Positions 7,761-63,712 of a stretch of 64,000 bases of DNA are shown one piece after another; within the stretch, counting starts at the first letter, position 1; every line of letters begins with the position of its first letter. A program made the translations under genes and the position numbers. This stretch comes from Claveliimonas bilis (GTDB lineage Bacteria; Bacillota; Clostridia; Lachnospirales; Lachnospiraceae): contig NZ_AP027742.1 of NCBI RefSeq assembly GCF_030296775.1, positions 2,418,001 through 2,482,000 of the forward strand. Reading direction: 5' to 3'. The notes beneath the pieces are model-generated. The model did no database searches, was not told the DNA's origin, and was given only the letters and a program-made list of their open reading frames with translations.

Positions 7761-8640
7761 AACTATTTATTCGTCTCTTTTTTTTATATGCTTCGATTAC
7801 TCCTAGTGGAAATGTAATCACCAAAATAAGCCTTTCTCTTAATTTAAATTTTCTAATATCCTTCCTTCTTGCAATTTTTTTATACATATTATATCTTATG
7901 CCTGCTTTTAATTTATTGAAAATTCCTTTTTTTAATTTCATATTCTGGGCTTCATGATACATTCTGCCAACAGGATTTCTGTATGAAATTTTGTCCATAT
8001 TTTTCGAATACCCATCAGTCAAATATTCACAGATGGTAATAATTTTAGGACATAAAATATAATCATACTTTTGATCTATCTGATCATAAATATATGTTTC
8101 AGATAGGAATTTTTCATCTTCTATAACCGGAAATAAATACTGTTTTATTACTTTGGAACTGAAACACATTGTTGTATCTCCGAAGTATGTTTTATTCATC
8201 ATATTTTGCAGATTACATACTTTTTGGTCTGGAAAATAACCTCTTCCCAACTCTTTTTCCATATCAAACCCTTTTTTTGCAATTATCCCCGCTATATTAA
8301 TATGATCATTTTCTTTCCATTGCTTTATCAATATGTCCACAGCCCTATCAATTAAATAATCATCAGAATCGACACATAAAAATAATTCCGTTCTACACTT
8401 TTCTACTCCCACATTATGTGCTTGCATTTTTCCCTTATTTTTTTGGTAGTAATATTCAATTCTAATTTTTTTTTCATTAATATATTGTTCAACCAATTCC
8501 TTTGTATTATCTGTAGATCCATCGTCAACTATTAACCATATAAAAGCATGGTTTGTCTGTTTTATCAAACTTAAGTATAAGCGTTCTAGTAAATGCCCCC
8601 TATTATAAGTTGGTGTAAAAATTGTAATCATCTCATTCAT
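7753..8640 (-). CDS. Glycosyltransferase family 2
   Basis: 295 aa, GT-A fold. It opens with ITIFTPTYNRG (5-15), followed by VDDGSTDN (38-45) and DSDD (91-94), the nucleotide- and metal-binding positions of GT2 enzymes. The C-terminus is basic and lacks membrane helices, so it probably acts at the inner membrane face on a lipid-linked acceptor. Its ends overlap both neighbours by 8 nt, showing tight coupling within the operon. Donor and linkage are unknown. Confidence 0.9.
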   Translation of the reverse strand: MNEMITIFTPTYNRGHLLERLYLSLIKQTNHAFIWLIVDDGSTDNTKELVEQYINEKKIRIEYYYQKNKGKMQAHNVGVEKCRTELFLCVDSDDYLIDRAVDILIKQWKENDHINIAGIIAKKGFDMEKELGRGYFPDQKVCNLQNMMNKTYFGDTTMCFSSKVIKQYLFPVIEDEKFLSETYIYDQIDQKYDYILCPKIITICEYLTDGYSKNMDKISYRNPVGRMYHEAQNMKLKKGIFNKLKAGIRYNMYKKIARRKDIRKFKLRERLILVITFPLGVIEAYKKKRRINSYD

Positions 8641-9385
8641 TAGTTAGATTCCTCATCTCCCTCAGTACTCTTTTTGCCCTATCTTCTCCCAAGATTTTAC
8701 AGCACATTCTAAACAAAGCTTTATGCCTCAATGCTTTCCGTGGAACCCAACTTCCAGCAAAGTGATGTATTGTATATGTATTATTAGTAACTGTTATTTT
8801 TCCCGTTGATGGTGATTTTGCACAAAAATAGTCCATAGGATATATCGCCATTCCATATTTTAGTACTTGATAACTGTTATTAAGTACTAGTCCATGCTTC
8901 TCCACACTAATGTGAGTTATGATATCAACATTAGTAATATGCTTCTCTTCAACTTCATTTAAAGAGAATTTTCTATCTTTATAGAAGTCTAACTGTTCTT
9001 TATACCATTGATTTTTAGGTTCAGAAGCCATAATTCCAGTAGGAATTTGATCAGGCATCTGAAATCCCGAAAATGCATGTTCATGTAATAAATTATCTAG
9101 TGGCTTTAATACTTCTACGTCTGTATCCATATATATACCTCCGTAATGATACAAAACATGAAGTCTAACAACATCTGATACATAAGCATACTTTTTTTCT
9201 TTATATGCCCCTTTTGTAAATTCATATAAATTTAAATCAAAATTATCTTCATTCCACTCAATAATTTCATACTCAGGCAAGTATTTACGCCAACTTTCAA
9301 TACATTTTTCTATTTGACCATTCTTTTTTCCACGCCCAAACCATACATAATGAATTATTTTAGGAATTCTCTTTTCCTCACTCAC
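8633..9385 (-). CDS. Glycosyltransferase with DXD motif (GT32 / OCH1-like)
   Basis: 250 aa. IPKIIHYVWFG (7-17) at the N-terminus and YMDTDVEVL (85-93) containing the DXD metal site identify the GT32/capsular sugar-transfer family (Gly_transf_sug). A late HHFAGSW segment (about 210) is also typical. Cytoplasmic; it would add one sugar to the repeat unit. It overlaps the upstream GT4 gene by 8 nt and the downstream GT2 by 8 nt. Confidence 0.9.
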   Translation of the reverse strand: MSEEKRIPKIIHYVWFGRGKKNGQIEKCIESWRKYLPEYEIIEWNEDNFDLNLYEFTKGAYKEKKYAYVSDVVRLHVLYHYGGIYMDTDVEVLKPLDNLLHEHAFSGFQMPDQIPTGIMASEPKNQWYKEQLDFYKDRKFSLNEVEEKHITNVDIITHISVEKHGLVLNNSYQVLKYGMAIYPMDYFCAKSPSTGKITVTNNTYTIHHFAGSWVPRKALRHKALFRMCCKILGEDRAKRVLREMRNLTNE

Positions 9386-10484
9386 TTACATCCACCTGTT
9401 CATTTATTATTTTCTTATAATTATTTATAGTTTCTTTAGCAATTGAATCCCAAAAAAACAACTTTGCACATTTAAACGCATTTTCCTCATATTTTTTCTG
9501 ATCTTTCTTGGAATCAATTGCCTTTATTATGGCCTTTGATATATCCACAGAATTATTTCCTACCCAGCCACATTCATTATTTAATACTAATTCCGCCATA
9601 CCGGTCCCTTCACTAACAATAACGGGAATTCCATAAGATAGGGCTTCTAAGATTCCCATCGGCATTCCTTCAAATCGTGACGTTTGAATAAAGTAATCCG
9701 TACTATTTAGTATTTTTCTCTTTTCTTCTTCATATATTGGATCACAGACTTTAACGATGTCACTTATTTCGAATTTCCTTATCATATCAATTAATTTTTC
9801 TTTATCACCGCAAACATCCGAACCGTATAAATAAATTTTTACAGTATATTTTCTTAAATAGTCATCTATTTCTTTACATGCCTCTAATAGGATATCCAAT
9901 CCTTTATGATAAATATCTAACCTCCCTATATACACGAGATCAATACTACTTTTCTTGCAAGATTGATATTCATTTTTCTCTGCCGGATATATTCCATTTC
10001 CAACAATAAAATATCGCTCCTTCCATCTTTTCTTTGTTTCCTTCATCTCTTGATAGGATAAAAAATGAATTGCCTGAGAATTCTTCATATATGAATTTAC
10101 ACATACTATGTTCGCTAATCTCTTTTTTAACTTACTTTTCCTTTGTGCAAAATTTGTTGATGATCCATGAGGTACGACTACATAAGGAATATTTTTCTTC
10201 ATAACAAAATAGCGCCATATTTTCCATAAATTAGGCAAATACATTCCATGGAATATGACTAGATCTATTTTTCCAATATTTTTTAATATATATTTAATTT
10301 TATTTCTACTAAATCCATCTAAGGCATAATATTTCACATTGTCACACAATTTGAAATGTGTAGAACAAAAATTAATACATATAACTTGCTCTATCCGACT
10401 TTGAACATTTAAATGCTGTGGAATAACTACTGACATACCTGAATCTTTGCGATTTGATATATTACATATATGCAAAATCTTCAT
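9378..10484 (-). CDS. Glycosyltransferase family 4
   Basis: 368 aa, GT-B fold. The C-terminal half has DLVYIGRLDIYHKGLD (about 180-195) and EGMPMGILEALSYGIPVI, which contains the E-x7-E nucleotide-sugar binding pattern. The N-terminal half resembles acceptor-binding domains of capsule GT4 enzymes. The ribosome site is GAGAGG, 8 nt before the ATG. Substrate unknown. Strongly AT-rich, like the genes downstream. Confidence 0.9.
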   Translation of the reverse strand: MKILHICNISNRKDSGMSVVIPQHLNVQSRIEQVICINFCSTHFKLCDNVKYYALDGFSRNKIKYILKNIGKIDLVIFHGMYLPNLWKIWRYFVMKKNIPYVVVPHGSSTNFAQRKSKLKKRLANIVCVNSYMKNSQAIHFLSYQEMKETKKRWKERYFIVGNGIYPAEKNEYQSCKKSSIDLVYIGRLDIYHKGLDILLEACKEIDDYLRKYTVKIYLYGSDVCGDKEKLIDMIRKFEISDIVKVCDPIYEEEKRKILNSTDYFIQTSRFEGMPMGILEALSYGIPVIVSEGTGMAELVLNNECGWVGNNSVDISKAIIKAIDSKKDQKKYEENAFKCAKLFFWDSIAKETINNYKKIINEQVDVSE

Positions 10485-10521
10485 ATAATGTTTCCTCTCA
10501 TCATCTTATATTTTAAAAGGA

Positions 10522-11718
10522 TCAAACTACTGACGTTATAATTTTTGCCAGTTTTGTATATGTATACTTTCTGTCAAATCTTTCTTGTGCACAACGCCTT
10601 GCGTTTTTCCCCATCTCCAGGCGTAATTTTTCATCATAAATCAGTCTTTCCATCTTTTCTGCCATATCTTTTGGTTCTCCATTTCTACAGTTGAATCCCA
10701 TGCTATAATCGTCTATAAGCTGACGAAATTCTTTACTTTCCTGCGTACTAATTATTGGAAGTCCAGCAGCCACATAATCTGCATGCTTATTAATAATGCT
10801 TTGAGCTGCCCCGTGCATAATTGGATTCAGTGCTATATCACATTCGCACAATCGCCGAACCATATCGGGATAATTAAGCGTTCCTGTAAACTCCGCATTA
10901 ATGCCTTTTTTTCTTGCATATTCTACAAATCGGTTTTTCAGAGGGCCATCTCCCATAATAACAAAACGATATTTTATTCCCTTTTCTTGCAGAATACTCA
11001 AAGCATCGAATGTACTCGTCAAATCATAACTATGCCCCAGTGTCCCACAATAAGCAAAAAGTATTTCATCTTTTCTATTCTTTCTCACAAAACCTTTGTA
11101 TAAATCGAAGGTTTCTAATTCCGTCCCCAGAAAAATCACTTCTGGTTTTGGACATACCATATTAACTCTTTTCCCCCTATCAGCGTATGTTTTGGACACT
11201 GCAACAATTCTATCTGCTGCTTTGTATATTCTATCTGCCTGTTTCTTCATAGGAGCAAAAATAATATTACTTATAATTGGTATGTTAAATACCACTCTAA
11301 ATGCTTCCGGCCATAAGTCCTGGATATCTATTACAAATTTTACATTGTTCCGTTTACAATAGGAGGCACATACATCTGCCACATCTAAAGACGGAACTGC
11401 GGTATAAACCAAGTCAGGAGTTATCCTTTCATTAAGATATAATCTTATATTCTTTGCCAATTCTTTATGACTTCCAAAACGCTTCAAACATACGTTTTTA
11501 GGATATCCTGATTCGTGACATGTTGTAATCTTAATTCTTTTTAATTCACCTACACTTTTAAAATGTTGCTTCTTTCCATGACTAAAATCAGACGTAATAA
11601 TTTCGACACTATCTATTCCTTCCTTTATTAATTCTTTTGCAATATAAATAAAGCGACTATTATTTCCTTCAAAGTCCTCTATATTTCTTAAATACTGTGC
11701 AACAATTACAATATCCAC
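10522..11718 (-). CDS. Glycosyltransferase family 4 (WbuB-like)
   Basis: 398 aa, GT-B fold. It has an N-terminal Rossmann-like domain with DIQDLWPEAFR near residue 131 and a C-terminal domain with AYCGTLGHSYDL (about 223-234) and MGDGPLKNRF. The usual E-x7-E is replaced by a HADYVAAGLPII segment, as in WbuB-type GT4 enzymes. The start is a GTG with AAAGGAA upstream. It lies after an internal terminator (11826-11850), so its expression probably depends on antitermination. From here toward wecB the genes become markedly AT-rich. Confidence 0.88.
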   Translation of the reverse strand: MDIVIVAQYLRNIEDFEGNNSRFIYIAKELIKEGIDSVEIITSDFSHGKKQHFKSVGELKRIKITTCHESGYPKNVCLKRFGSHKELAKNIRLYLNERITPDLVYTAVPSLDVADVCASYCKRNNVKFVIDIQDLWPEAFRVVFNIPIISNIIFAPMKKQADRIYKAADRIVAVSKTYADRGKRVNMVCPKPEVIFLGTELETFDLYKGFVRKNRKDEILFAYCGTLGHSYDLTSTFDALSILQEKGIKYRFVIMGDGPLKNRFVEYARKKGINAEFTGTLNYPDMVRRLCECDIALNPIMHGAAQSIINKHADYVAAGLPIISTQESKEFRQLIDDYSMGFNCRNGEPKDMAEKMERLIYDEKLRLEMGKNARRCAQERFDRKYTYTKLAKIITSVV

Positions 11719-11825
11719 CGCAAAAAATTCCTTTCCCGTGTACTCAGATTCACCCGAACCCTATCTATGACCTTATAATTTTCTAACTTTTCGATATAGA
11801 TAGATCTTCCCATCCATAAAGTAAT

Positions 11826-11850
11826 AAAAAAAGACATCTTTACAATGTCT
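11826..11850 (-). terminator. Internal terminator within the polysaccharide operon
   Basis: On the minus strand AGACAT pairs with ATGTCT across a 7-nt loop and is followed directly by seven Ts. It lies between the ATP-grasp gene and the next glycosyltransferase although both belong to the same run. This is the kind of site a LoaP-type processive antiterminator would have to bypass. Confidence 0.65.
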
Positions 11851-11876
11851 ATATCCATTCCTTATAACTACACTAT

Positions 11877-12971
11877 TTACAATTTTGTCTTTAAATCATC
11901 AAAGATTTTTTCGCTCTCCAAAATAATTGGCTCTACATCGACATCACGAAGAAAAATATATGGTTTCTCATAATGATAAAACTGATCACGTACCACATTA
12001 TTAGCATTCCCCTCTTCCATAATACGAATCGTATCTTCTATCAAATCAAAACCTACATGTGCCATAACACCTGTGTACGCCATGTGACGGATGTTAATCT
12101 CTGTAACTTTCATGTTGCCTTCCGTATCCTCTTTTAAATCAAAAGACAGAATACCGTGAGCCGGAACGTTAAGTTTCTTTTCTAGGTATTTGATGCAATC
12201 ATCGCAGAACTTGTTAATTTTATCCTCGTTAAGAAATCGACCAAAGTGTGTATTTCCTGTTACGTGTGATGGAGCTGTGTTTGCCATGACATATTCAACG
12301 CACTCCAACGCTGCACCTTTCACATACTCTCCATTGTAGTAAAGCATCTGATTTGCCAGATGACGACCTGAGAGAAACTCAGATACTGTAAATTCTGGAA
12401 TTCTTCCATTAATGAGGAGCCAAGAACGATAAGAACTTATATCATTCAGTTTTAGGCTTCCGAGACCTCCTGTTCCTTCTGTAGCTCTAATCCAGCAAGG
12501 AAACTTGATTTCCTTCTCTACCTCTTCAAATCTAGGATTTCTCTGCGTAACCTTGAGCGTCTTTGGAATGAATTCCGTGCCTTCAAGAAGTTCAGCCATT
12601 ATCGCTTTATCTTTAAGACTCTCCGAGAATAATCTACATCCCATAAAAGTCGGACAAGGATATTTTTTGTGAATCTCATAGTATCGTCCCCATTCAATAA
12701 TTTCGCTTTCTGGCTCTACGAAGGCATAATCTATTTTCTTCTCAATCACAAGTCTTTCAATCCAAGCAAAATATTGGGGACTGTCACATCTTGGAGCTAT
12801 GAAATACTCGTCTATAAGTTTTTTGTTATCTTTAGTTTTCATAAAAAAACCTATTGCTTTTTTATCTACATCGCAACCAATAAGCTTGTAATCGGGATGT
12901 TTTTCTTTAATCATTATTGCAATAGAGCGTGGCGTAAGACCACCAATACCTGTAATCAAAATTGTCTTCAT
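11877..12971 (-). CDS. ATP-grasp carboxylate ligase
   Basis: 364 aa. The N-terminus ILITGIGGLTPRSIA is a nucleotide-binding pre-ATP-grasp domain. The centre has RATEGTGGLGSLKL (about 163-176, the glycine-rich ATP loop), and the C-terminal region ends the fold with FDLKEDTEG ... VTEINIR, where the acidic E-x-N pair binds Mg-ATP. The family resembles CarB-like/PylC-like ligases that join a carboxylate to an amine. It sits in a cassette with another ATP-grasp enzyme, a PLP enzyme and an opine-dehydrogenase-like protein. Substrates are unknown; amide formation on a sugar or amino acid is inferred. Confidence 0.82.
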   Translation of the reverse strand: MKTILITGIGGLTPRSIAIMIKEKHPDYKLIGCDVDKKAIGFFMKTKDNKKLIDEYFIAPRCDSPQYFAWIERLVIEKKIDYAFVEPESEIIEWGRYYEIHKKYPCPTFMGCRLFSESLKDKAIMAELLEGTEFIPKTLKVTQRNPRFEEVEKEIKFPCWIRATEGTGGLGSLKLNDISSYRSWLLINGRIPEFTVSEFLSGRHLANQMLYYNGEYVKGAALECVEYVMANTAPSHVTGNTHFGRFLNEDKINKFCDDCIKYLEKKLNVPAHGILSFDLKEDTEGNMKVTEINIRHMAYTGVMAHVGFDLIEDTIRIMEEGNANNVVRDQFYHYEKPYIFLRDVDVEPIILESEKIFDDLKTKL

Positions 12972-13013
12972 TGTTGTTCCCCTTTGTTTCTATTTATTTT
13001 AATGTAGAATAAT

Positions 13014-14012
13014 CTATAGTAATGTTTTTAGAACGGACACAAGCCGCTCCATATCTTCTTCATTATATCGTTGATCACAAATGAGAGATAATTCCTGATC
13101 ATATAGATTTGAATCGCAACCATCCGGCCTTGGCCAGTGAATTGGACAGTAAATCTGTTTGAGAGAGAGTTCTCTTTTTATCTCTTTCTGATTATGGAGC
13201 AGTATAGGCACAAACAAAGGGCAATCCATATCTTCTATCGAAAAAAGGAACTGCACTTTCTCTTCCAGCCCTTCATACAACACCTTTGCGTTTCTTCTTC
13301 TTATCCTCCTTTGCTCTCCAACATCCACAGTGGAAAGATAGTCTTTTGAACACAAGTCTATAGATAGTCCTGAATAATTCTCTGCAAGCCAGTGATTACT
13401 TTCTTCGAACATAGAGAGGAATCGAGGCTTTTTTTCTTTATCAAAATCTAGCAGATACTCTCTCTTTAATTCCATGGCTTCCTTCTTTAATCTCATATAT
13501 TCCACAGGCGGAGATATTGTCGGCTCATAGTGAATCTTCCCATTTACACTCGAACAGTATCCTCCGCAATTAATTGGCTCCCACTTGCGCAATGAAGCAA
13601 CCAAGTAATGTGATTGCGGATGGCAAGGGTTTTCTGAAAATAAGCTATGGGTAACATCCTCGATAATTACGCCTTGAAACTTTGACAAGTCTGGCATTGA
13701 CATCATAAATCCAAAGTAATTGCACCAGAGGATAATATCCGTATTCTCCGGTATATCAACCTCAATCTTTAATCCATTCTCAAAATACACAGGATAAAAT
13801 TCAACCTCTATCCCTGCATCCTTAAAGGGTTGAATCATTGAGTAACAACAGTAAGACGGGAGGGCCGCTTTTCTTGCTCCTATAATCTCTTTAAGTACAG
13901 TCTCTATTGCCGTCCTGCCAGAGAAAACCAATGAACCTAGAATTGGATAGCGCAAACCATGACCTCTATCAGGTAATACTCTATGAAATTCACTACCAAT
14001 TTCCCATGCCAT
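13014..14012 (-). CDS. DegT/DnrJ/StrS-like PLP-dependent protein
   Basis: 332 aa, shorter than typical DegT aminotransferases (about 370-400). SGRTAIETVLK (31-41) matches the family's SGTxA substrate/PLP region, IIEDVTHS (116-123) the Asp that contacts the PLP ring, and SLRKWEPINCGG (140-151) carries the candidate Schiff-base Lys143. The sequence is divergent, so it may be an aminotransferase or another PLP reaction. It is 42 nt upstream of the ATP-grasp gene. GAGGTG precedes the ATG. Fold is fairly sure, reaction is not. Confidence 0.7.
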   Translation of the reverse strand: MAWEIGSEFHRVLPDRGHGLRYPILGSLVFSGRTAIETVLKEIIGARKAALPSYCCYSMIQPFKDAGIEVEFYPVYFENGLKIEVDIPENTDIILWCNYFGFMMSMPDLSKFQGVIIEDVTHSLFSENPCHPQSHYLVASLRKWEPINCGGYCSSVNGKIHYEPTISPPVEYMRLKKEAMELKREYLLDFDKEKKPRFLSMFEESNHWLAENYSGLSIDLCSKDYLSTVDVGEQRRIRRRNAKVLYEGLEEKVQFLFSIEDMDCPLFVPILLHNQKEIKRELSLKQIYCPIHWPRPDGCDSNLYDQELSLICDQRYNEEDMERLVSVLKTLL

Positions 14013-14223
14013 AGTTTCACCTCTTTCAACTATCTGCTATAACATCCTTAGTTTCGATTTATTCTCGTATATTTTCCCACGCCTTTCTCAAAACCTTAAT
14101 CATTACTATTGTACTAATGAGCAAAGCTTTGCAATTCCCTATGATGGTTAAGTTAAGATTCCATATCTTTATCTATTATGAGACGTATTTTGAATATTAG
14201 TCACATCAAACAACCACAAAAGA

Positions 14224-15276
14224 TTAAATGTAATCCTTTACTTCTTCAATCGAGTACCCCTGTGCTCGATAATCCGTATTCTTCAGAGCAGATGCGATAG
14301 TAATTAATGCAGAAGCAATAGGTGTATGAAGCCCCTTATATTCTGAAAGCCTTTCAAGCATACACAATTCCATGGGTACATCCTCATATATATATCGAGT
14401 ATTCAGATCTTCTGGCCCTTTGGGACCTCCTGTTGCAGCATAGTTCCTAAAAACTTCTAAACTATCAACATAGAGATTCTCTTCATTTCTCCACTTACAT
14501 GCATCAAGATAGCTAATAACATGTTCACCACCATATGCTTTGATGACTTGTTTTTTTTCTTCATCCAACTTCTCAATAAGCCCCCAAACGGAAGGTGAGA
14601 AGGCTTCCCTATACATCCAAAACTGACCTTTTGCATATTCTATACGACTCGCTGACATAATTGATCCAACTGTATGTACAATCATATTGGGATTATGCAT
14701 CGTTGTCTCTATTATATTTGTCCTCAAATATTTATGAGTACCGAACAATGATGTTACAACAGGCAGATATTGTTCATCCTTCTTATTCAAAAAAGAGACA
14801 GCATTTCTCACGTTTTTGAATAAGATTTCAACCTTCCCTGGAGCAATAATACGTGCATCATAGGGGGTTGATTCCCCCTCTACATAAACTACGTGTTTCC
14901 CAACAGAGTGCTTTGCAAACTGCGTAGAACCCATATTACCTGGAATAATGAATACAATTTGTCCTTCCTTAAGTAAGGGACCAATTTTTTTAGCTAAGTC
15001 TCGATGCTGTAGACTTTGCGTTAAAACCATAACAACCTCAGCATCTTCAAGGCCTTCTTCTAAATCTCTCGTAATCATCGAAGGCTTAAGTGTGAACTCA
15101 CGATTTCCATCTGTTGTATCGAGACAACTAATTTCTCCTGTTTTTAACAGATATTCGAAATTGTCATCATGCAAACTATGGGAAGTTTTAATCAAATTGA
15201 CCTGATGACCATTTTGTATCAATTTGATTGATTGAGCACACCCGGAGTTCCCTGCTCCAATAACCGCTACTCTCAT
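14224..15276 (-). CDS. NAD/NADP octopine/nopaline dehydrogenase family protein
   Basis: 350 aa. It opens with a Rossmann motif AVIGAGNSG (4-12, GxGxxG) and matches opine dehydrogenases (an NAD-binding domain followed by an all-helical octopine dehydrogenase domain). A His near residue 194 (TTMHNPNMIVH) lies where the catalytic His is found in the family. Opine dehydrogenases reductively join an amino acid's amine to a keto acid. Its presence in a polysaccharide locus is unusual and suggests an N-(carboxyalkyl) amino-acid substituent. That role is inference. Confidence 0.8.
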   Translation of the reverse strand: MRVAVIGAGNSGCAQSIKLIQNGHQVNLIKTSHSLHDDNFEYLLKTGEISCLDTTDGNREFTLKPSMITRDLEEGLEDAEVVMVLTQSLQHRDLAKKIGPLLKEGQIVFIIPGNMGSTQFAKHSVGKHVVYVEGESTPYDARIIAPGKVEILFKNVRNAVSFLNKKDEQYLPVVTSLFGTHKYLRTNIIETTMHNPNMIVHTVGSIMSASRIEYAKGQFWMYREAFSPSVWGLIEKLDEEKKQVIKAYGGEHVISYLDACKWRNEENLYVDSLEVFRNYAATGGPKGPEDLNTRYIYEDVPMELCMLERLSEYKGLHTPIASALITIASALKNTDYRAQGYSIEEVKDYI

Positions 15277-15335
15277 TTTAAAAAACTCCTTTCGTTGTAA
15301 ATAATATTATTTGTTTAGCTTCATGATGTAAAAAA

Positions 15336-16430
15336 TCAGAATATGATGGTATTACATCCACCATATCTAATTCGCCATTTGCTCTGGTCTAATATTCCCT
15401 CTTGATTAAGTCCTCCTGGTTTGATTGACATCTGATAGCTCCCATGCCTTATAAATCCAATCTTTTCCATACCCTTATTATCAGATATATCTGATAATAC
15501 TGTAGTAATATTATCAACTTGCGAACCAAAGGAATCGATTGCCAATAAATTTAAATCAATCTCACTCAATTCTTCTTCGTTATAGCTACCCCATTCTACA
15601 ATTGTCCCCCGTGTTATATTTTTATATTTCCCCTGTCTACTTTCAAATCTTTCTTTTGTCATAAAAAATCCTTTTGGATTGCCCTGTCTATCACATACTG
15701 TGTAAAAGGACTGTTTGTCATTTAGTTTCTCAGTAAATTTATTATCTAAGCACCATTGAAACCATTTGTGATCATGCACTTCCATAAATTCATGTCCATC
15801 ATGAAGGGTTAGCTCATCTATCCAATCCGGTATAACACATTCTTTCTTGATTTGATAAAATGCCTTTATCTTTTTTAATCTGAAGGTATTTGGAATATTT
15901 ATAAGTTTTAAAACTGCATTGACAATAATTGTTCCTAACTTAAGAGGAAAGCCCCGAAATCCGTTTGCCTCCAAAACTGAACGGCTATTACACAGCTTAT
16001 AATAAGACGGAAGTTCAAAAATCGTCAGTCCAAGTTTTCGGACAATTGCTGCTGCTGTTGTAGAGTAGAATTGTCCTATGTAAGATTCATACTCTGAATT
16101 CATAATACTATCTCTGAATACTATTGTTCCCAAACCACGACCACGAAGCTGCTCCGCAATTTCATAACTACCTCCAGTTTGGGCCATAATTATCTCATCA
16201 TTTATTTTAAGTTTTGTGGGCATCAACATATTCCTGCCTGCAATAATTCCATCACAAATAGCAATGTTTATAGCTGATTTACACTCATCATCAAGATTTG
16301 GATTTGCCAAAAGCGTACTTCGAACTGACGATGTAAGATATTCAGAAACCATACCATAGTTATCATCAACAGAAATCCCCGTTTGATCTCTCAGGTCTTT
16401 ATATGTTATTCTTTGCAAAACAACATCCAT
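15336..16430 (-). CDS. GNAT-like acyltransferase family protein
   Basis: 364 aa, no close family recognised. Residues about 65-140 contain GSYEIAEQLRGRGLGTIVFRDS, which looks like the acyl-CoA pyrophosphate loop (Q/RxxGxG/A) of a GNAT fold, followed by an LGLTIFELPSYY strand-turn. The C-terminal half (after about 205) resembles a second, degenerate GNAT-like domain. It lies between the opine-dehydrogenase-like gene and an ATP-grasp gene, so it may acylate the same small molecule or sugar. No signal peptide. Treat as hypothetical with GNAT-like features. Confidence 0.55.
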   Translation of the reverse strand: MDVVLQRITYKDLRDQTGISVDDNYGMVSEYLTSSVRSTLLANPNLDDECKSAINIAICDGIIAGRNMLMPTKLKINDEIIMAQTGGSYEIAEQLRGRGLGTIVFRDSIMNSEYESYIGQFYSTTAAAIVRKLGLTIFELPSYYKLCNSRSVLEANGFRGFPLKLGTIIVNAVLKLINIPNTFRLKKIKAFYQIKKECVIPDWIDELTLHDGHEFMEVHDHKWFQWCLDNKFTEKLNDKQSFYTVCDRQGNPKGFFMTKERFESRQGKYKNITRGTIVEWGSYNEEELSEIDLNLLAIDSFGSQVDNITTVLSDISDNKGMEKIGFIRHGSYQMSIKPGGLNQEGILDQSKWRIRYGGCNTIIF

Positions 16431-16533
16431 GAACTCTCACCTCTCTATAAAGTTTTCTAAAAACAAATCTTATCATGCCAATCATCCACATCTGACATTT
16501 TCTTCTTTCAAAATAAATATAGCTGTCTATATC

Positions 16534-17817
16534 TCATTGAAACAAAATCTCAGGATCCAACTTCTCCATTAATAAAGATTCACCATATTCGTTAAATACA
16601 TCAAATTCTCTATTGATATAATTGACAATTCTCTTAACCTCTTCTTTGTTATCAGCTACCACTTCGGCAACCATAATGGGTCTGTCCACTGTTCTATCTT
16701 TGCCATAGTGATACCCGACATCCCGGTATTTTTGTATCTCAATACATTCTGGCATTGCTTCAACTTCTTCCATGCCAACAATCAATGCTACCGTTTCATC
16801 TGTTCCCTTTAACAGATAGTTACAATCAAGAGCATATTTTTTATATTTAGCAGCTTCTTCGCTAATCGTATTGATATCATCAACCATCTGTCCTGTCAAA
16901 GCAAAGCGGATTATCATATCCATTGCATTATATCCCAAACATGCCTGCTCATGATTAAAGTAAGAGCCACCAAGTCTGCATCCCATCTCATAAAATGTTA
17001 CTCTCTTTCCATCATAGTAACCTTGCATAAATAAGACACCGTCTGTAAAACCTTCTCTTTTGAACATACTGACAACTCGATCATTAACATTATCCAAATA
17101 ATAATCAACCATCTTAGAAGGCGACATACTAATTGTCGAGTAATTGATGGCGCTTCCTCGATCTGACGCCATAAATCGATCAAAAATAGACAAAAGTCTA
17201 AACTCTCCATTAACAGCAATGTAATCGAGTAAAAACTCTCTTCCGGTAATATAGTCTTCGATTATTGCCTCACCTCTAGTGGAATAATCTACTGCTTCCT
17301 GGAATTTTGCACAGAGTTCCTCTTCATTATTGCATACTCCAGCCCCTCTCGATCCGCTGCCATCTAAGGGCTTTACAAACACTGGGTAATTAATCCTCTT
17401 AAAAGTATCTTCATCTATACTTTTACCCATAAAATATGTATGTGGAACCGGCACTCCGTATTTGTCACACGTTTCCTTAAAAACCACTTTGTTAGTAGAC
17501 ATACTCAGCATTTTGTCTGTAATATAGCACGGAAGATTAAGTCTCTTGCAAACCTCCATATAAGGACTTAAAAGGATATCCACAAATCCAGTAATAACGC
17601 CATCAACTTTTTCCTGCTTACAATAATCCACCAATGCATCAACGTCTTTTCCACTGATCAAGGCAGCCTTATCTGCAATTTTCATACCAGGGGCTTCAGA
17701 ATCATAATCGGCTACTATCGTATATGCTCCTTTAGCCTTTGCATAATGTACAATATCACATTCTGTTTTTGTTCCTCCTATTATCAGTAATTTCCTTCCC
17801 TCAAATTCTTTATTCAT
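16534..17817 (-). CDS. ATP-grasp domain protein (carboxylate-amine ligase)
   Basis: 427 aa. It has an N-terminal Rossmann-like LLIIGGTKTECD domain, a central ATP-grasp fold with the loop KPLDGSGSRGAGV (about 148-160), and the acidic Mg-binding region YEMGCRLGGSYFNHE (about 272-286). It resembles PurK/BacD/CarB-like ligases that activate a carboxylate as acyl phosphate and couple it to an amine. The gene follows the initiating sugar transferase by about 115 nt and heads the cassette of unusual enzymes. Substrate is not identifiable by eye. Confidence 0.82.
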   Translation of the reverse strand: MNKEFEGRKLLIIGGTKTECDIVHYAKAKGAYTIVADYDSEAPGMKIADKAALISGKDVDALVDYCKQEKVDGVITGFVDILLSPYMEVCKRLNLPCYITDKMLSMSTNKVVFKETCDKYGVPVPHTYFMGKSIDEDTFKRINYPVFVKPLDGSGSRGAGVCNNEEELCAKFQEAVDYSTRGEAIIEDYITGREFLLDYIAVNGEFRLLSIFDRFMASDRGSAINYSTISMSPSKMVDYYLDNVNDRVVSMFKREGFTDGVLFMQGYYDGKRVTFYEMGCRLGGSYFNHEQACLGYNAMDMIIRFALTGQMVDDINTISEEAAKYKKYALDCNYLLKGTDETVALIVGMEEVEAMPECIEIQKYRDVGYHYGKDRTVDRPIMVAEVVADNKEEVKRIVNYINREFDVFNEYGESLLMEKLDPEILFQ

Positions 17818-17931
17818 ACCATAAACCTTTCGTTTCCACTGTTTATTTAGAATAGCATCTCATTTGCTTATCACTCTCAAATACACAAATTTCTTATAGA
17901 CTCATTGGTATAGTCCTTTCCTCTTTTATAC

Positions 17932-18600
17932 TCAACACTTTTCTCTATGTTCTTCTCTCTGCTTAATGCGATACTTATCAAAGTCTCCTTGACTGCCCGC
18001 TTCAACAATATTTGACCGCTTTATGACCTTTTTCACAGTCTCAATTATTATTTTGACATCAAACAGAAAAGAAACCCTTTCCACATACTCTATGTCATAT
18101 TTAAAGCGTTTCTCCCAATTTGCTGCTGTTCTTCCATTCACTTGTGCCCAGCCACTCAATCCAGGTCGAACTGCATGCCGTTTACGTTCTTCATCTGTGT
18201 AATACGGAAGATACTGTACTGCCAAAGGACGCGGCCCTATAATACTCATATCCCCCTTCAAGATATTCCATACCTCCGGTAACTCATCTAGGCTAGTCGC
18301 CCTAAGAATACGACCGAATTTCGTCAATCTCTGAGCATCTGGAAGTAATTCTCCATTTTCATCCTTCACATTGCTCATAGAGCGAAATTTATACAGACTA
18401 AATATTTTTTCTTTCCCAGTCTTCTTATCAATTCTACCAGGGCGATCTTGCCTAAATATCACTGGACTTCCAAGTTTTATATAGACCAAAAACGCAATAA
18501 TAGCATATAGCCAGCAAAAAAACATCATAGCCAACAACGAACAAATGATATCTAAAATCCGTTTAACAAAGCGGTTATAAATCCCATTAATGCCTTTCAC
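17932..18600 (-). CDS. Initiating sugar-1-phosphate transferase (WcaJ/PglC type)
   Basis: 222 aa. One N-terminal membrane segment or re-entrant helix (about 16-38) is followed by the bacterial sugar transferase domain: FRQDRPGRI (48-56), SLYKFRSM (67-74), LDELPEVWN (about 98-106), GDMSIIGPRPL (109-119) and RPGLSGWAQVNGR. It moves a sugar-1-phosphate from a nucleotide sugar to undecaprenyl phosphate and so starts each repeat unit. The start is GTG with AAGGAG 9 nt upstream. The gene-poor stretch before it (18601-19023) is unusual within this run. Confidence 0.93.
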   Translation of the reverse strand: MKGINGIYNRFVKRILDIICSLLAMMFFCWLYAIIAFLVYIKLGSPVIFRQDRPGRIDKKTGKEKIFSLYKFRSMSNVKDENGELLPDAQRLTKFGRILRATSLDELPEVWNILKGDMSIIGPRPLAVQYLPYYTDEERKRHAVRPGLSGWAQVNGRTAANWEKRFKYDIEYVERVSFLFDVKIIIETVKKVIKRSNIVEAGSQGDFDKYRIKQREEHREKC

Positions 18601-19023
18601 ATTACAACTCTCCTTTTTCCTCTAAATGTGTTCCTCTCACTTTCCACTAGGCGACTTTCCAATAATGAAAACCCTCAGCGTAGACTTATTGAATTCAAAC
18701 CAAGTATCCCAAAGTGAATCTTTATTGTGTTCTCCTAAGATGCATAATATGACAAGAATAGTAGTCAAAACCTCATCTGTACGCTCTTACTTATTCCTTT
18801 ATCTACCATATTAATAACCACTATCCAAAACTGTAATTCTGTAGTTCGATTTTTTACGCTAATACTCCAACATCACAGTTCCAATAATAATTCGAAACAT
18901 GTTATAACTCATGTCATCAAATTCATGGAAGGTTCTATCTATAGCTAACTCAATCGGATAGCCCTAAGTTAGCATATCAACATAAGGTAATATGTAATTA
19001 ATAGTTATATTTTCCTGTACTGA
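18601..19023. other. Gene-poor gap inside the polysaccharide operon
   Basis: About 420 nt of AT-rich sequence without a recognisable gene. A weak dyad, GCTAACT (18944-18950) with AGTTAGC (18967-18973), lies near its upstream end on the minus strand. A short reading frame at 18626-18814 on the plus strand has no ribosome site or similarity that I recognise. It may be a leader RNA or gene remnant. Confidence 0.5.
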
Positions 19024-20298
19024 TTACTCAAAACATCCCTTCACAATCTCAATCACTCTATCCTGCTCCCCAGCCGTCATCTTATTATCACTCGGCAGAC
19101 ACAGTCCTCTCTGGAACAGATCCATTCCTACATCCAGCGCTCTTCCATCTTTTCCAACTGCTCCGACCGCAAGATAAGCATTGGTCTTTGCCCTTCCGTT
19201 ACCTTCCCGCGTCACAAATGAATTCATCCGGTAGATAGGCTGCATATGCATGGGTTTCCATATGGGCCTTCCTTCCGCATTATAGCTCGCCAGTGTTTCC
19301 AGGATTTCTGTGGGGCAGCTCTTCCCATGTTCTGGAAGATACAATGCCTCCTGTTCTCCCCGCATCTGCCTGCACATTCCTTCCGGCTTGATCAGAAGAC
19401 AGCTTAGCCAGAAGTTCGGCTCGCTGTTTTTTTCGTCATAAGGATTCATTTCTACCGGAAGACCTGCTCGTTTAAAAGCTTCCTTATAACGCATGTAGAT
19501 TGCTTTCTTCTGTGCGATATGCTCTTCCAAATAAGGAAGTTGTCCCCGTACCACTCCAGCGATCACATTACTCATGCGGTAGTTGTATCCCAGCTCTTCA
19601 TGCTGATACCAGGGAGCATTTTCTCTGGCCTGAGTAGACCATTTCCGCACCTTTTCCGCTGCTTCTTTGTCATCGGTCAGGAGCATCCCTCCGGAAGATC
19701 CTGTAATGATCTTGTTCCCATTAAAAGAAATACAGTTATATGTACCAAAGGTTCCTGTCTGTATGCCCTTATAAGTTGCGCCGAAAGATTCTGCGGCATC
19801 TTCGATGATGGTTGCCCCGTGTCGGTCGCACACTTCTTTGATCTCATCGACTTTTCCCGGCGTTCCATACAGATGAGCCACAACGACTGTTTTCACTTCG
19901 GGATACAGACGAAAGGCCTGCTCCAAAGCAACGGGATCCATGTTCCAGGTAGCATATTCGGTATCAATAAATACAGGTATGCCTCCCTCATAGACAACAG
20001 GGTTTACCGTTGCATCAAAAGTCATATCCGAACAGAATACCTTTTCTCCAGGCTGAACTCCTGCCAGCTTGACTGCCATATGCAGCGCCGCCGTTCCTGC
20101 TGAAAGTGCCACTGCATAATGACACCCTGTCTTTTCACAGGCAATACGTTCCACCTCATTGATATTTTGTCCCACTGTAGACATCCAGTTTGTCTCATAG
20201 GCTTCTTTCACATATTCAATTTCCGGGCCGTGCATGGTTGGACTGCTCAGCCAGACTTTTGATTCAAAAGCCTTAAACTCTTTTCCTTGCTTAAACAT
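19024..20298 (-). CDS. DegT/DnrJ/EryC1/StrS aminotransferase
   Basis: 424 aa, PLP enzyme of the sugar-aminotransferase family. SAGTAALHMA (66-75), EDAAESFGA (166-174, PLP-ring Asp) and SFNGNKIITGSSGG (191-204, Schiff-base Lys196) are all intact. Such enzymes aminate 4-keto or 3-keto nucleotide sugars; PglE-like enzymes make UDP-diNAcBac precursors. A roughly 30-residue insert (about 315-345) precedes PIWKPMHMQP. It is the first structural gene after the loaP pair, separated from them by a terminator (20362-20386). Confidence 0.92.
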   Translation of the reverse strand: MFKQGKEFKAFESKVWLSSPTMHGPEIEYVKEAYETNWMSTVGQNINEVERIACEKTGCHYAVALSAGTAALHMAVKLAGVQPGEKVFCSDMTFDATVNPVVYEGGIPVFIDTEYATWNMDPVALEQAFRLYPEVKTVVVAHLYGTPGKVDEIKEVCDRHGATIIEDAAESFGATYKGIQTGTFGTYNCISFNGNKIITGSSGGMLLTDDKEAAEKVRKWSTQARENAPWYQHEELGYNYRMSNVIAGVVRGQLPYLEEHIAQKKAIYMRYKEAFKRAGLPVEMNPYDEKNSEPNFWLSCLLIKPEGMCRQMRGEQEALYLPEHGKSCPTEILETLASYNAEGRPIWKPMHMQPIYRMNSFVTREGNGRAKTNAYLAVGAVGKDGRALDVGMDLFQRGLCLPSDNKMTAGEQDRVIEIVKGCFE

Positions 20299-20361
20299 CT
20301 TTTCCTCTCATCCTCTGCAGCCTCATTTTTAAACTCTTGATGCTGCTCTTATTTTTCTCCA

Positions 20362-20386
20362 CAAAAATAGGAAGGCCTTGCCTTCC
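20362..20386 (-). terminator. Terminator directly after the second loaP-like gene
   Basis: On the minus strand GGAAGGC pairs with GCCTTCC across a 3-nt loop (20370-20386) and is followed by TATTTTTG. It lies between the antiterminator genes and all the polysaccharide enzymes. The arrangement fits LoaP-dependent readthrough: without the antiterminator only the regulators would be made. Confidence 0.75.
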
Positions 20387-20420
20387 TCTCTGGTTCTTCT
20401 ATATTTCTTTTACTTCTCTT

Positions 20421-20945
20421 CTACCTTTTTCCTTCCGGATCATCCTCAAGCCGGATGCCAAGGATAATCTCCCGATCTTTTCCCAGAAACTGCTGTCTGA
20501 TCAGCACGTAGCGCTTCCGGATCCGTTGTTTGATGATATACTCAAAATATTTTCCTACTGCTCCCTCTGCTGCCACGATCTGCTTTTCTTCATCCAGCTT
20601 TACCAGTGAGCGCCGGACAAGATGTCCTTCGCTCTGGATGTTTTCCAGAAATCTCTCTTCCTCTTCTTCTACCTTAAGAAAAACTTCCTCTTCATTTTTC
20701 AAAAGCTTTGTAAGCTTCGGTACATTCTTTAATTCATAATATAATTCTTTGGGGAATTCTGTGTCTATAAAGACATAGCCGGGAAACAATGCCTTTTGGC
20801 AGATCTCCCAGCTACTTTTTTGTTTTATGGCACATTCCCTTTTTATATAGAAGCAGTCCCTGTAAAGTTCTTTTGTGAGGATTTTCCTCATCATCTCTAC
20901 CAGGATTTCTTCCTGTCCTGTTGTTGTCTGAATCACATACCACAT
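20421..20945 (-). CDS. LoaP-like NusG paralogue (second of a tandem pair)
   Basis: 174 aa. The N-terminal NGN domain starts MWYVIQTTTGQEE (1-13), with LFPGYVFID near 57-65. The C-terminal KOW region (about 130-165) is degenerate (GAVGKYFEY rather than the usual GPLxGxE). NGN-KOW proteins of the LoaP subgroup bind RNA polymerase and a leader RNA hairpin and let it pass terminators in long polysaccharide or antibiotic operons. The start is set at 20945 because AGGAG lies 7 nt upstream. A terminator follows immediately. It lies downstream of a second, different paralogue. Confidence 0.82.
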   Translation of the reverse strand: MWYVIQTTTGQEEILVEMMRKILTKELYRDCFYIKRECAIKQKSSWEICQKALFPGYVFIDTEFPKELYYELKNVPKLTKLLKNEEEVFLKVEEEEERFLENIQSEGHLVRRSLVKLDEEKQIVAAEGAVGKYFEYIIKQRIRKRYVLIRQQFLGKDREIILGIRLEDDPEGKR

Positions 20946-20983
20946 ATGTATGCTCCTTTTTGGGTATGCTTCGCCATATCCGC

Positions 20984-21001
20984 AGTATGAAGCGTCATAC
21001 T
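20984..21001 (-). promoter_or_regulatory. Hairpin in the leader of the second loaP-like gene
   Basis: AGTATGA and TCATACT form a 7-bp stem with a 4-nt loop about 40 nt before the start codon. LoaP acts through an RNA hairpin element in the nascent leader, so this is a candidate recognition site. No T-run follows, so it is not a terminator. Assignment is speculative. Confidence 0.3.
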
Positions 21002-21100
21002 CCGAACTTTTTACACGCAAATTTATGACCACAATCCACGATTTCCATAGCACACACTACAGAAAAAGATCCTGACTCTGGTTTTTATCCGATCACCTGC

Positions 21101-21607
21101 TTAACTTTTTGAAGTGATCTCTAAACCTGCCTGAAGAAAGGTTCCTAATCCTCCGGCAGGCATTTCCACATTTGCCGTACGTTTATGGCGGTCTATTTTT
21201 CGGATTCGTCGTTCCATTCCCACCAGCGGGCCATGGATAACATGGGTGATTCCATCACGGATATATCCCTGGGACATACAGAGATGATGCTCGTTTCCGC
21301 ACAGTTTTTTCAAAAACTCTTCCGCATCTGCAGGCACAGCCCAAAGCAGTCCGCCCTCCTCGGAAGTCTGAAGAAACTTACGGCAGGGTTCCAATTGTTC
21401 CGACAAAGCGGCAGGATCCGTTGTCTCAACAAAGATACAATCTGGGAAAAGCTGCCTTTTTTCCATATGCCAGCTTCCTTCATACCGCTTCATTCTGTCA
21501 GAAGTGAACACAAAAATATCACGCAAAATTTGATGTGAAATCTGCCTTCTGCATGACTTTATGACCTCTTCTGTTTTTCCGGGGTGACATTTCAGTATAC
21601 ACCACAT
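21101..21607 (-). CDS. loaP: LoaP-like NusG paralogue (first of a tandem pair)
   Basis: 168 aa. The NGN domain begins MWCILKCHPGKTEEV, with LFPDCIFVET near 53-62. The KOW motif is well kept (GPLVGMERRIRKIDRHKR, about 128-145) and close to the LoaP consensus. It should associate with RNA polymerase and prevent termination along the polysaccharide operon. The start at 21607 has GAGGAG 7 nt upstream. One arm of the 26-bp inverted repeat ends only 16 nt before that start codon, so the gene is the first to be read from the candidate invertible promoter. Confidence 0.85.
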   Translation of the reverse strand: MWCILKCHPGKTEEVIKSCRRQISHQILRDIFVFTSDRMKRYEGSWHMEKRQLFPDCIFVETTDPAALSEQLEPCRKFLQTSEEGGLLWAVPADAEEFLKKLCGNEHHLCMSQGYIRDGITHVIHGPLVGMERRIRKIDRHKRTANVEMPAGGLGTFLQAGLEITSKS

Positions 21608-21623
21608 AGAATCACTCCTCATT

Positions 21624-21649
21624 TTCGCAGAGTTACATACTCTGCGAAA
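21624..21649. repeat. Inverted repeat arm 1 of a candidate invertible element
   Basis: A 26-bp sequence that is the exact reverse complement of 21857-21882. It is itself a near-palindrome: arms of TTCGCAGAGT and ACTCTGCGAA flank a 5-bp asymmetric centre (TACAT here, ATGTA in the other copy). Two binding arms around a short directional core is the layout of a tyrosine-recombinase crossover site. No T-run follows on the minus strand, so transcription toward loaP is not terminated here. Confidence 0.8.
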
Positions 21650-21856
21650 GTGAAAAAGGCGAAAAGGCTTTAATTGCGGCTGATACACGGAAATTATTTT
21701 TACTATATATTATAGAAGAAACAGGAAACTTCAAATGTCGAAAAAAGCCTGCTTTCTACACATTTCTACGCGAAAACAGGCGAAAACCTATGGAAATCAT
21801 GGCAATTCTGATCTTTTTGTTGAATAACAAATACAGATGAGGTATAATATTTACGA
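21650..21856. promoter_or_regulatory. Candidate invertible promoter segment upstream of the polysaccharide locus
   Basis: A 207-bp segment between the two inverted arms with no coding content. The best promoter reads on the plus strand, away from loaP: TTGAAT (21820-21825), a 17-nt spacer, TATAAT (21843-21848). A weaker one faces loaP on the minus strand: TTGAAG (21729-21734) with TAATAT at 16 nt (21707-21712). A minus-strand hairpin with six Ts (stem 21747-21756 with 21772-21781) lies behind it as an insulator. Flipping would aim the stronger promoter at loaP. The present state is therefore inferred to be off or low. Confidence 0.7.
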
Positions 21857-21882
21857 TTTCGCAGAGTATGTAACTCTGCGAA
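21857..21882. repeat. Inverted repeat arm 2, also a terminator on the plus strand
   Basis: The reverse complement of 21624-21649. On the plus strand its 10-bp stem is followed by seven Ts (21883-21889), making a Rho-independent terminator about 10 nt after the expected start of the plus-strand promoter at 21843-21848. In the present orientation that promoter would be shut down before reaching cbiK. Confidence 0.75.
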
Positions 21883-21898
21883 TTTTTTTCTGACCTAA

Positions 21899-21927
21899 TT
21901 GATTAATTTTCAAACCTCCGTTATACT
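21899..21927 (+). promoter_or_regulatory. Promoter of cbiK
   Basis: TTGATT (21899-21904), a 17-nt spacer and TATACT (21922-21927). It lies after the terminator formed by the inverted repeat, so cbiK has a promoter of its own outside the invertible segment. Confidence 0.65.
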
Positions 21928-21965
21928 ACTGACAGTTCCTATTTACCCACATGGAGGAAAAATCT

Positions 21966-22748
21966 ATGACAAACAAAGCTCTGCTGGTGGTAAGCTTTGG
22001 CACCAGCTATAAAGAAACAAGAGAAAAAAACATTGAACATATTGAGAAAATTCTTGCCCGGAAGTTTCCGGACAGAAAGTTTTTCCATGCCTATACAAGC
22101 GGCATGATCTTGAAAAAATTAAGAGAGCGGGACCACATTATCATCCCCAACGTAAAGGAAGCTATGGAGGATATTGTAAAGGAAGGTTTTACGGATCTTC
22201 TTGTGCAGCCCACCCACATTATGAATGGTGTAGAAAATGATCTCATGAAGGCGGACGTACTCTCCTTCCGGGAGCATTTTTCCAGTCTTTCTTTCGGCTC
22301 CCCTCTCCTTACGGATACTTCGGATCTTTTTTATGTGATCGACGCTTTAACAAAAGAGCTCCCTGCCTTGTCGGAGCAGGAAGCTCTTGTATTCATGGGC
22401 CACGGAAGCGCCCACTATGCCAATATGCTCTACGGGGCGCTGGATTATGCCTTTAAACAGACGGGCCATCCCCATGTCTATGTAGGCACAGTGGAGGCTT
22501 ATCCGGATCTTGATGCTGTTCTTAGCCTGATGGAAGGCAAAGGTTACCGCCATATCTACCTTACGCCGCTTATGCTGGTGGCGGGAGATCACGCCTCCAA
22601 CGACCTTGCCGGTGAGGAGCCTGATTCCTGGAAATCCATCTTCCAGTCCCGCGGCTATGAGACTACCTGCATTTTAAAAGGTCTTGGCGAATATGAGTCC
22701 ATCTGTGAACTCTATGTGCGCCACGCCCTCCAGGCACAGCCTGTTTAA
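21966..22748 (+). CDS. cbiK: Sirohydrochlorin cobaltochelatase CbiK
   Basis: 260 aa, full length for class II chelatase CbiK. It inserts Co2+ into sirohydrochlorin, the committed step of the cobalt-early B12 route. LLVVSFGTSY at the N-terminus and FMGHGSAHYAN with its His (about 143-153) match the family; the C-terminal half repeats the ferrochelatase-like fold with a second conserved His (VAGDHASND). The ATG at 21966 is preferred because GGAGG lies 8 nt upstream; an earlier ATG at 21951 overlaps that site. It is on the opposite strand from, and downstream of, the main cob run. Confidence 0.95.
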   Translation: MTNKALLVVSFGTSYKETREKNIEHIEKILARKFPDRKFFHAYTSGMILKKLRERDHIIIPNVKEAMEDIVKEGFTDLLVQPTHIMNGVENDLMKADVLSFREHFSSLSFGSPLLTDTSDLFYVIDALTKELPALSEQEALVFMGHGSAHYANMLYGALDYAFKQTGHPHVYVGTVEAYPDLDAVLSLMEGKGYRHIYLTPLMLVAGDHASNDLAGEEPDSWKSIFQSRGYETTCILKGLGEYESICELYVRHALQAQPV

Positions 22749-63444: not shown

Positions 63445-63495
63445 CATAAACTGCCCTTCTTCGGACTTCTTATGTATATCAATTTCATTCAATAA

Positions 63496-63657
63496 TGATA
63501 GCGCTCCACAGGTTGTGACAGTCCGCAGCATATTCTGCATACGGCCCAGGAAATCTGTCCGGGAAAACAAGATCTCCTTCGGCAATGTTCCCTTTCCACA
63601 CAGTATGCATACCCGTGCTTCTATTCTGTGGTACTATTGAACACTGCACCTCTATCA
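63496..63657 (-). promoter_or_regulatory. Lysine riboswitch (L-box) aptamer
   Basis: On the minus strand P1 is TGATAG (63652-63657) with CTATCA (63496-63501). Conserved L-box blocks are present in order: AGAGGTGCAG, TAGTACCACAGAA, GGGAACATTGCCGAAGG, CTGGGCCGTATGCAG, CTGCGGACTGTCAC and GTGGAGCGCTATC. It lies upstream of the NhaC-like gene with a terminator after it, so the transporter should be shut off when lysine is plentiful. Confidence 0.9.
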
Positions 63658-63712
63658 GGTCTGATTATTCATACAATAAAGTTGTATCACCTTTGCCGGA
63701 TAAAGTCAATAG

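Follow-up and report, generated by a model that had tools for sequence, protein, structure and literature searches.

Invertible promoters at capsule and surface loci, and a probable one in Claveliimonas bilis

Capsule promoters of Bacteroides are flipped by Mpi, which acts in trans, and phase-variable capsules shape the phage sensitivity of these bacteria. In Akkermansia, phase-variable capsules have been found to shape colonisation (PMC13343947). Genes for UpxY are enriched near invertons, and one inverton group (139), with its invertase group (35), is found mostly in Clostridia with tyrosine recombinases nearby (PMC11892184); LoaP is not mentioned in the main text of that article. At cwpV of C. 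difficile, a 195-bp inversion is carried out by a site-specific recombinase, and intrinsic termination has been proposed for the OFF state (PMC2784873). Megabase inversions of capsule clusters have been described in a preprint on Eggerthella lenta (PMC13174815). Among the literature matches listed, which are mainly open-access, no description of an invertible promoter before loaP in Lachnospiraceae was found.

The element considered here lies in a 64-kb stretch of the Claveliimonas bilis genome, termed the window. The interval 21624-21882 is interpreted, with a probability of roughly 0.86, as an invertible promoter element (inverton) that would be flipped by a tyrosine recombinase and that is in the OFF orientation in this assembly. 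The first-pass annotation had proposed an invertible promoter at this place, and the proposal is supported as a whole, the comparative tests being mostly in its favour.

By analogy, the element would be a counterpart of the capsule invertons of Bacteroides in which a LoaP-like protein replaces UpxY. As in the UpxY switch, a putative invertible promoter stands before a NusG-paralogue antiterminator that heads a polysaccharide operon, several such loci are present per genome, and the invertase would act in trans. It differs in having a LoaP-like protein, a sigma-70-type promoter and TCGCAGA arms, and in that the site doubles as a predicted terminator. With cwpV, as described in the accessible text, it shares a (here putative) inversion of about 200 bp upstream of a surface-related gene in the Bacillota, the intrinsic termination proposed for the OFF state and the involvement of a site-specific recombinase. 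The cwpV promoter, however, is not part of the segment that inverts, and it is the OFF transcript that makes the terminator there; in the window, the promoter would be inverted together with the segment, and the predicted terminator is the site. In E. lenta, according to the part of the preprint at hand, inversion also changes the relation of capsule genes to loaP, and no recombinase was found beside the repeats either, but the repeats are 16 bp long and of other sequence, the segments are of megabase size and no promoter is flipped. Should the interpretation hold, the role that UpxY has downstream of a flippable promoter would be taken in the Bacillota by LoaP-like proteins; the recombinase, the sites and both target loci are specified closely enough for testing.

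The element and its neighbouring genes

The first-pass annotation described two exact 26-bp inverted copies around 207 bp, each consisting of two binding arms of roughly 10 bp about a 5-bp asymmetric centre. The coordinates, length and interval all proved exact, and the centre and the 10-bp arms, which are palindromic, are as it described. The element thus has exact inverted repeats that flank a short segment upstream of a gene, as invertons do, and its inverted binding arms with an identical asymmetric centre display the geometry of tyrosine-recombinase sites (Table 1). Between the near site and the start codon of loaP lie 16 bp. No other exact inverted 16-mers more than 60 bp and less than 600 bp apart are present in the 64-kb window. 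The 207-bp segment is 94.2% identical to that of C. bilis strain c-25 (NZ_AP024845.1) and is oriented alike.

Table 1. Coordinates of the element and of adjacent features in the window
Feature	Position	Strand	Remarks
Near (loaP-side) candidate recombination site	21624-21649		Core TACAT on +; exact inverted copy of 21857-21882
Far (cbiK-side) candidate recombination site	21857-21882		Core ATGTA on +
Putative invertible segment	21650-21856		207 bp, interval between the sites
Promoter TTGAAT-17-TATAAT	21820-21848	+	Consensus match; points away from loaP (OFF); 10 bp from the 23-bp site
Predicted intrinsic terminator	21858-21889 (stem 21858-21882)	+	Far site plus seven T
loaP-like gene	21101-21607	-	168 aa; first gene behind the putative switch; NF033641, 106.5 bits, E 1.5e-30
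Second NusG/LoaP-like gene	20421-20945	-	174 aa; NF033641, 115.9 bits
Polysaccharide genes	6465-20298, reaching at least 6465	-	Pfam
cbiK (cobalt chelatase family)	21951-22748	+	Divergent neighbour; PF06180, E 4e-83

Both NusG/LoaP-like genes have NF033641 (LoaP) as their best family, yet their scores fall below its curated cut-off of 125 bits, and the name loaP-like is therefore used. Against the UpxY family NF033644, the first protein gave no match at E 0.001 and the second scored 19.6 bits, under the cut-off of 100. Pfam was run on nine minus-strand open reading frames between 2622 and 20298, and six matched; the polysaccharide-gene matches comprise a DegT aminotransferase, a sugar transferase, ATP-grasp, glycosyltransferases and Wzy_C. 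The LoaP-like protein presumably drives this polysaccharide operon. LoaP of B. velezensis, in the accessible text of the report, uses a UNCG RNA hairpin in the leader of its target operon (PMC12691694). Hairpins of the UNCG type, defined narrowly by a TNCG loop on an unbroken stem of at least five pairs, were found neither on the minus strand of 18700-21620 nor, at the second loaP-like gene of the genome, in the approximately 2 kb behind its start.

A second pair of sites in the genome

The whole 3.11-Mb contig was searched for TTCGCAGAGT-N5-ACTCTGCGAA with up to three mismatches. Only four sites are present, the window pair (locus 1, core TACAT) and a pair at 1550355/1550604 (locus 2, core AAACT). 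The latter flanks 224 bp (1550380-1550603) and lies immediately before the second loaP-like gene of the genome. This gene shares 52% identity with that of the window and is followed by a second NusG-like gene and then by polysaccharide-type genes (the latter read by eye). According to the first-pass annotation, finding the repeat scattered as an ordinary terminator would speak against inversion; since the only sites of the genome form two pairs, each before a loaP-like gene, the repeat is not a scattered terminator. Judged by position, the two pairs have the same job. At locus 2, one site carries an arm mismatch and both copies are off the consensus at one base.

Promoter and terminator

Promoters and terminators were called as consensus matches. 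The best promoter match within the segment is, as had been proposed, TTGAAT-17-TATAAT pointing away from loaP. A consensus scan of 21500-22050 yielded three promoter-like sites, this one among them, where 1.9 are expected; one at 21584-21612 has as many consensus matches. A weaker promoter facing loaP, which the first-pass annotation had placed at about 21707-21734, turned out to be marginal, as no match on that strand passed the 9-of-12 threshold.

The terminator that had been suggested for the far arm and its seven Ts is the only terminator-like match in 21500-22050 (one found, 0.3 expected), and its RNA fold has a predicted energy of -15.1 kcal/mol (z -5.45). Because the far site and the seven Ts form this predicted terminator, the OFF transcript should end after about 35 nt. 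The tail is a recurrent feature. Past the far site, reading outward, T occupies 7-9 of the first 10 bases in all nine elements tabulated (seven of them distinct), and only 0-4 on the gene side; in the G353 element the tail Ts form no long run.

At locus 2, a promoter TTGAAC-17-TATAAT lies 10 bp from the 23-bp site and points toward loaP. Locus 1 is accordingly assigned OFF and locus 2 ON, as the promoter faces away from loaP in the one and toward it in the other. Two elements of another genome of the genus, G398 (L045 and L046), have TTGAAG-17-TATAAT 9-10 bp from the site, both pointing away from loaP, and G397 has TTGAAT-17-TATAAT 10 bp from the far site, also pointing away. A promoter of this type at 9-10 bp is found genus-wide in the loaP elements whose relevant segment end is covered; the window segment contains, as expected of an inverton, a promoter that is recognised by consensus and whose location is conserved within the genus. 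The spacing does not hold as a rule outside the genus, where L032, L033, L007 and further loci have distances of 16-278 bp. There, the best promoter match lies at a distance of 33 bp in G353, where it points away from loaP, and of 26 bp in L007, where it also points away; it faces loaP in G350, G012, G013, G262 and G184, and G126 was assigned neither orientation.

The site family in related genomes

The arm sequence that is constant between the loci of relatives is mostly TCGCAGA, surrounding a 9-bp centre. Of 397 genomes sampled from the family, 28 contain exact TCGCAGA-N9-TCTGCGA, including two of C. bilis, and a reversed control pattern matched six genomes of the same sample. The site family may be included in the inverton group 139 mentioned above, to which it is likened by the description in the available text and not by repeat sequence.

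Strand exchange by tyrosine recombinases demands matching asymmetric centres; operators or terminators need none. The comparison of centres comprised 38 exact sites, 31 of the 49 from the family scan and seven from an earlier set. Eighteen family-scan sites that stood alone in the list of their genome were left out of the pair count, and the scan covered five of the six sites of G029 and all 15 of G281. Exact sites less than 2 kb apart form 15 pairs, in which the window element is counted twice, once for each C. bilis strain (G000 and G296). All 15 are inverted, with centres that match at nine of nine positions in 13 pairs and at eight in the other two. Between loci of the same genome, none of 35 comparisons gave identical centres; two loci of G029 account for all four comparisons that agree at eight of the nine positions. 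In G281, every one of nine pairs matches internally, and one of the 36 comparisons between pairs gave identical centres. Centres that match in inverted register within pairs and mostly differ between loci are the signature of recombination sites. That each element has a private centre was also considered; this is weakened by two G029 pairs with centres one base apart and by two G281 pairs (C27/C42) with a common centre. A single site in G281 (C21) has a centre in common with the pair on C2.

Of 24 annotated site loci, 13 have a matching partner with up to three mismatches and 11 have a tyrosine recombinase of this kind. At 11 of the 24, no partner within three mismatches is present in the sequence covered, and one of these (L147) has a more degenerate partner instead (L094). 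The exact sites of G191 and G269 have no partner, recombinase or loaP-like gene within the sequence covered. One-sided arm mismatches are common in the pairs of relatives.

G281 has nine TCGCAGA-type pairs in one genome (contigs C2, C9, C16, C20, C27, C36, C42, C62 and C73). The nine, seven of them with their sites 355-426 bp apart, represent a large set of candidate promoter switches. The site family, with 28 of 397 genomes and nine pairs in one of them, would be a handle for finding more switches.

Association with loaP-like genes

The genus has 13 loaP-like genes, in 6 of 11 genomes. All seven that are at least 48% identical to the gene of the window have a site directly upstream, and none of the six at 32-34% identity has a matching pair in the upstream sequence covered. 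In a sample of the family, loaP-like matches were found in 16 of 299 genomes, at 30 loci; up to 1.5 kb upstream was viewed, and several loci end at contig ends. An inverted repeat, in some cases with other arms, is found upstream of seven of the seven genes with at least 45% identity, four of which are from C. bilis. Among the remaining 23 family loci, an inverted repeat was detected upstream of one gene with 40% identity (L108) and of a tandem pair of such genes in G184.

Orientation in strains and species

The first-pass annotation suggested that strains of the species be compared for inverted assemblies. This gave nothing within C. bilis, as the two assemblies (window strain and c-25) agree at both loci, with locus 1 OFF and locus 2 ON, and was positive between congeneric genomes. 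G402 and G404 have a common element that encloses a recombinase gene and has the core ATTTT. The 60 bp beside one flank in G402 are 82% identical to the opposite inner end of G404 when reversed and 49% identical in the same orientation, where shuffled sequences have a mean of 50 and a maximum of 57. The one imperfect arm travels with the inner segment. The second junction of G402 could not be aligned, its 52% being about shuffle level.

G397 and G405 are alike in flank and site and differ in the interior, and a 25-bp stretch with 22 identical positions is in opposite orientation; this score was reached by one shuffle in 1000, and the match is the best of 15 interior comparisons. Five other interior comparisons lie above the 95% shuffle mark, none of them above its own highest shuffle; four agree with the orientation assigned from the promoter and one, in which the window and G405 appear alike, disagrees. 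In both G402 and G397, the assembly breaks into contigs at the element. These differences between species, at one junction each, show a site family that by sequence comparison inverts in evolution; flipping probably takes place in the window strain as well.

Tyrosine recombinase

No recombinase gene had been noted in the window, and indeed the tyrosine-recombinase matches listed for the genome all lie outside it, a statement that concerns the tyrosine type only. It had also been suggested that the genome be searched for a tyrosine recombinase with the same site elsewhere. A second site pair and a related enzyme at 543 kb were found, but the enzyme has no site beside it. This candidate is encoded by an orphan 317-aa gene at 543273-544226; taking the contig as a circle, 1.2 Mb separate it from locus 1. 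It is adjacent to neither site pair, and no site-like palindrome was found near it. It is 44% identical to the recombinase of L007 (E 3e-67, with 2e-12 for the next best in the genome), is intact and is 99% identical between the two C. bilis strains.

PF00589 and PF14659 are present in all five recombinase proteins tested. Residues R152, K199, H262, R265, H288 and Y298, presumably the catalytic ones, do not vary among the 11 recombinases compared. A tree of 34 recombinases takes in five other tyrosine recombinases of this genome. The candidate groups with the enzymes of G353, G397 and G405 (support 100/99), and the other five fall elsewhere, some on long, unsure branches.

In relatives, a recombinase gene adjoins the site pair in L007, G353 and G350. 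In G353 and G350, the recombinase gene is followed by the element, the loaP-like gene, a second NusG-like gene and polysaccharide-type genes (read by eye). The G397 recombinase, 64% identical to the candidate, adjoins a site close to where contig C23 ends, and the contig with the loaP gene (C38) ends at a partner site that matches the one on C23; the assembly therefore seems to be broken inside the element. In G398, where both elements have changed inner arm bases, there is no close ortholog of the candidate (best 34%). Two recombinase clades differ in the arm type of their sites, the GT type being present in 0 of 9 and 9 of 11 (Fisher 0.0003, uncorrected for relatedness). The orphan 317-aa recombinase is likely the enzyme for both pairs, acting in trans.

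At 13 loci, the recombinase gene is situated between the two sites, so that the gene itself would flip. These are L129, L130, L131, L132, L134, L136, L140, L144, L145, L030, L049, L050 and L052, with pairs 1.0-1.5 kb apart.

Proposed mechanism and alternative explanations

It is proposed that the recombinase cuts and rejoins the two palindromic sites inside their asymmetric centres, whereby the 207 bp, which would carry one strong sigma-70 promoter, are flipped. In the OFF orientation the promoter would face cbiK, and its transcript would pass the far site into the seven Ts and terminate. After inversion to ON, the promoter would direct transcription across the near site, which lacks a T-run, to the ribosome-binding site of loaP, and the transcript would carry the same hairpin at its 5' end. 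LoaP would then assist RNA polymerase in traversing the long polysaccharide operon. The orphan recombinase would serve the window pair and that at 1550355/1550604 in trans. The promoter and terminator activity, the effects on transcription and the target of LoaP are predicted from DNA sequence.

Several other explanations have to be weighed against an invertible promoter. Each site is a near-perfect palindrome of a kind common among operators, both sites are close to promoter-like sites, and 11 of the 24 exact sites in relatives are without a nearby partner. The palindromes might on these grounds be operators of a dimeric regulator of loaP (perhaps cbiK), with looping and without inversion. 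Such an arrangement is hardly credible, as it leaves unaccounted for the matching of centres within pairs and their difference between most loci, the tyrosine recombinases beside or inside pairs and the opposite orientations in relatives. Another arrangement, very unlikely, is a toggle with two targets, loaP in one orientation and cbiK in the other. The promoter does point at cbiK at present, with the gene start 102 bp beyond. However, a strong predicted terminator lies between the two, the T-rich tail past the far site is present in nine of nine elements whatever the neighbouring gene, and a separate promoter-like site for cbiK is present at 21899-21927.

An inverton that no longer inverts would be a fossil, frozen OFF at locus 1 and ON at locus 2, with its recombinase moved away or its specificity lost. 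The agreement of both assemblies at both loci, the lack of a site near the candidate enzyme and, at locus 2, the arm mismatch and the base at which both copies depart from the consensus are in keeping with this. Nevertheless, loss of function is improbable. In both strains the locus 1 sites remain without a mismatch over 26 bp, against a difference of 5.8% in the segment that they enclose. The enzyme is intact as well, with 99% identity between the two strains and with the presumed catalytic residues present, and one-sided arm mismatches are common in the pairs of relatives.

A more elaborate form of the inverton interpretation is offered tentatively, its parts being judged jointly at somewhat less than even odds. 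One orphan recombinase would serve two capsule switches that share their arms and are kept apart by the centre, which would act as an address code. The cell would shuffle its polysaccharides by way of two LoaP-like proteins, one ON and one OFF. Each site would be a recombination site, a terminator in the OFF state and a hairpin at the 5' end of the loaP mRNA in the ON state. As the differing centres would let each site pair only with its partner, the 0.9 Mb between the loci would stay uninverted. Such a code is not universal, as the two G281 pairs with one centre show.

Additional features of the sequences

A third loaP-like gene of the C. bilis genome (C1:509679, 32% identical) has no element in the 1.5 kb upstream. 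The locus (L127:5596-12638, corresponding to 509.6-516.6 kb of C1 in G000) is loaP-like and polysaccharide-like and is without an inverton. Transposase-like open reading frames, recognised by eye, separate this locus from the orphan recombinase (543 kb).

In G402, a related recombinase (L082:1302-2532) is found with a matched pair, TTCTTATAGT-AGAAT-ACTATAAGA, that has quite different arms, which suggests the same geometry with another specificity. In an uncultured Lachnospiraceae (L007:1697-8000), the same element with the core TACAT has the recombinase on one side and, on the other, a very long open frame of at least 1764 aa that is surface-protein-like by eye, with no loaP-like gene there. 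Elsewhere in the window, a lysine riboswitch is present on the minus strand at 63491-63662 (96 bits).
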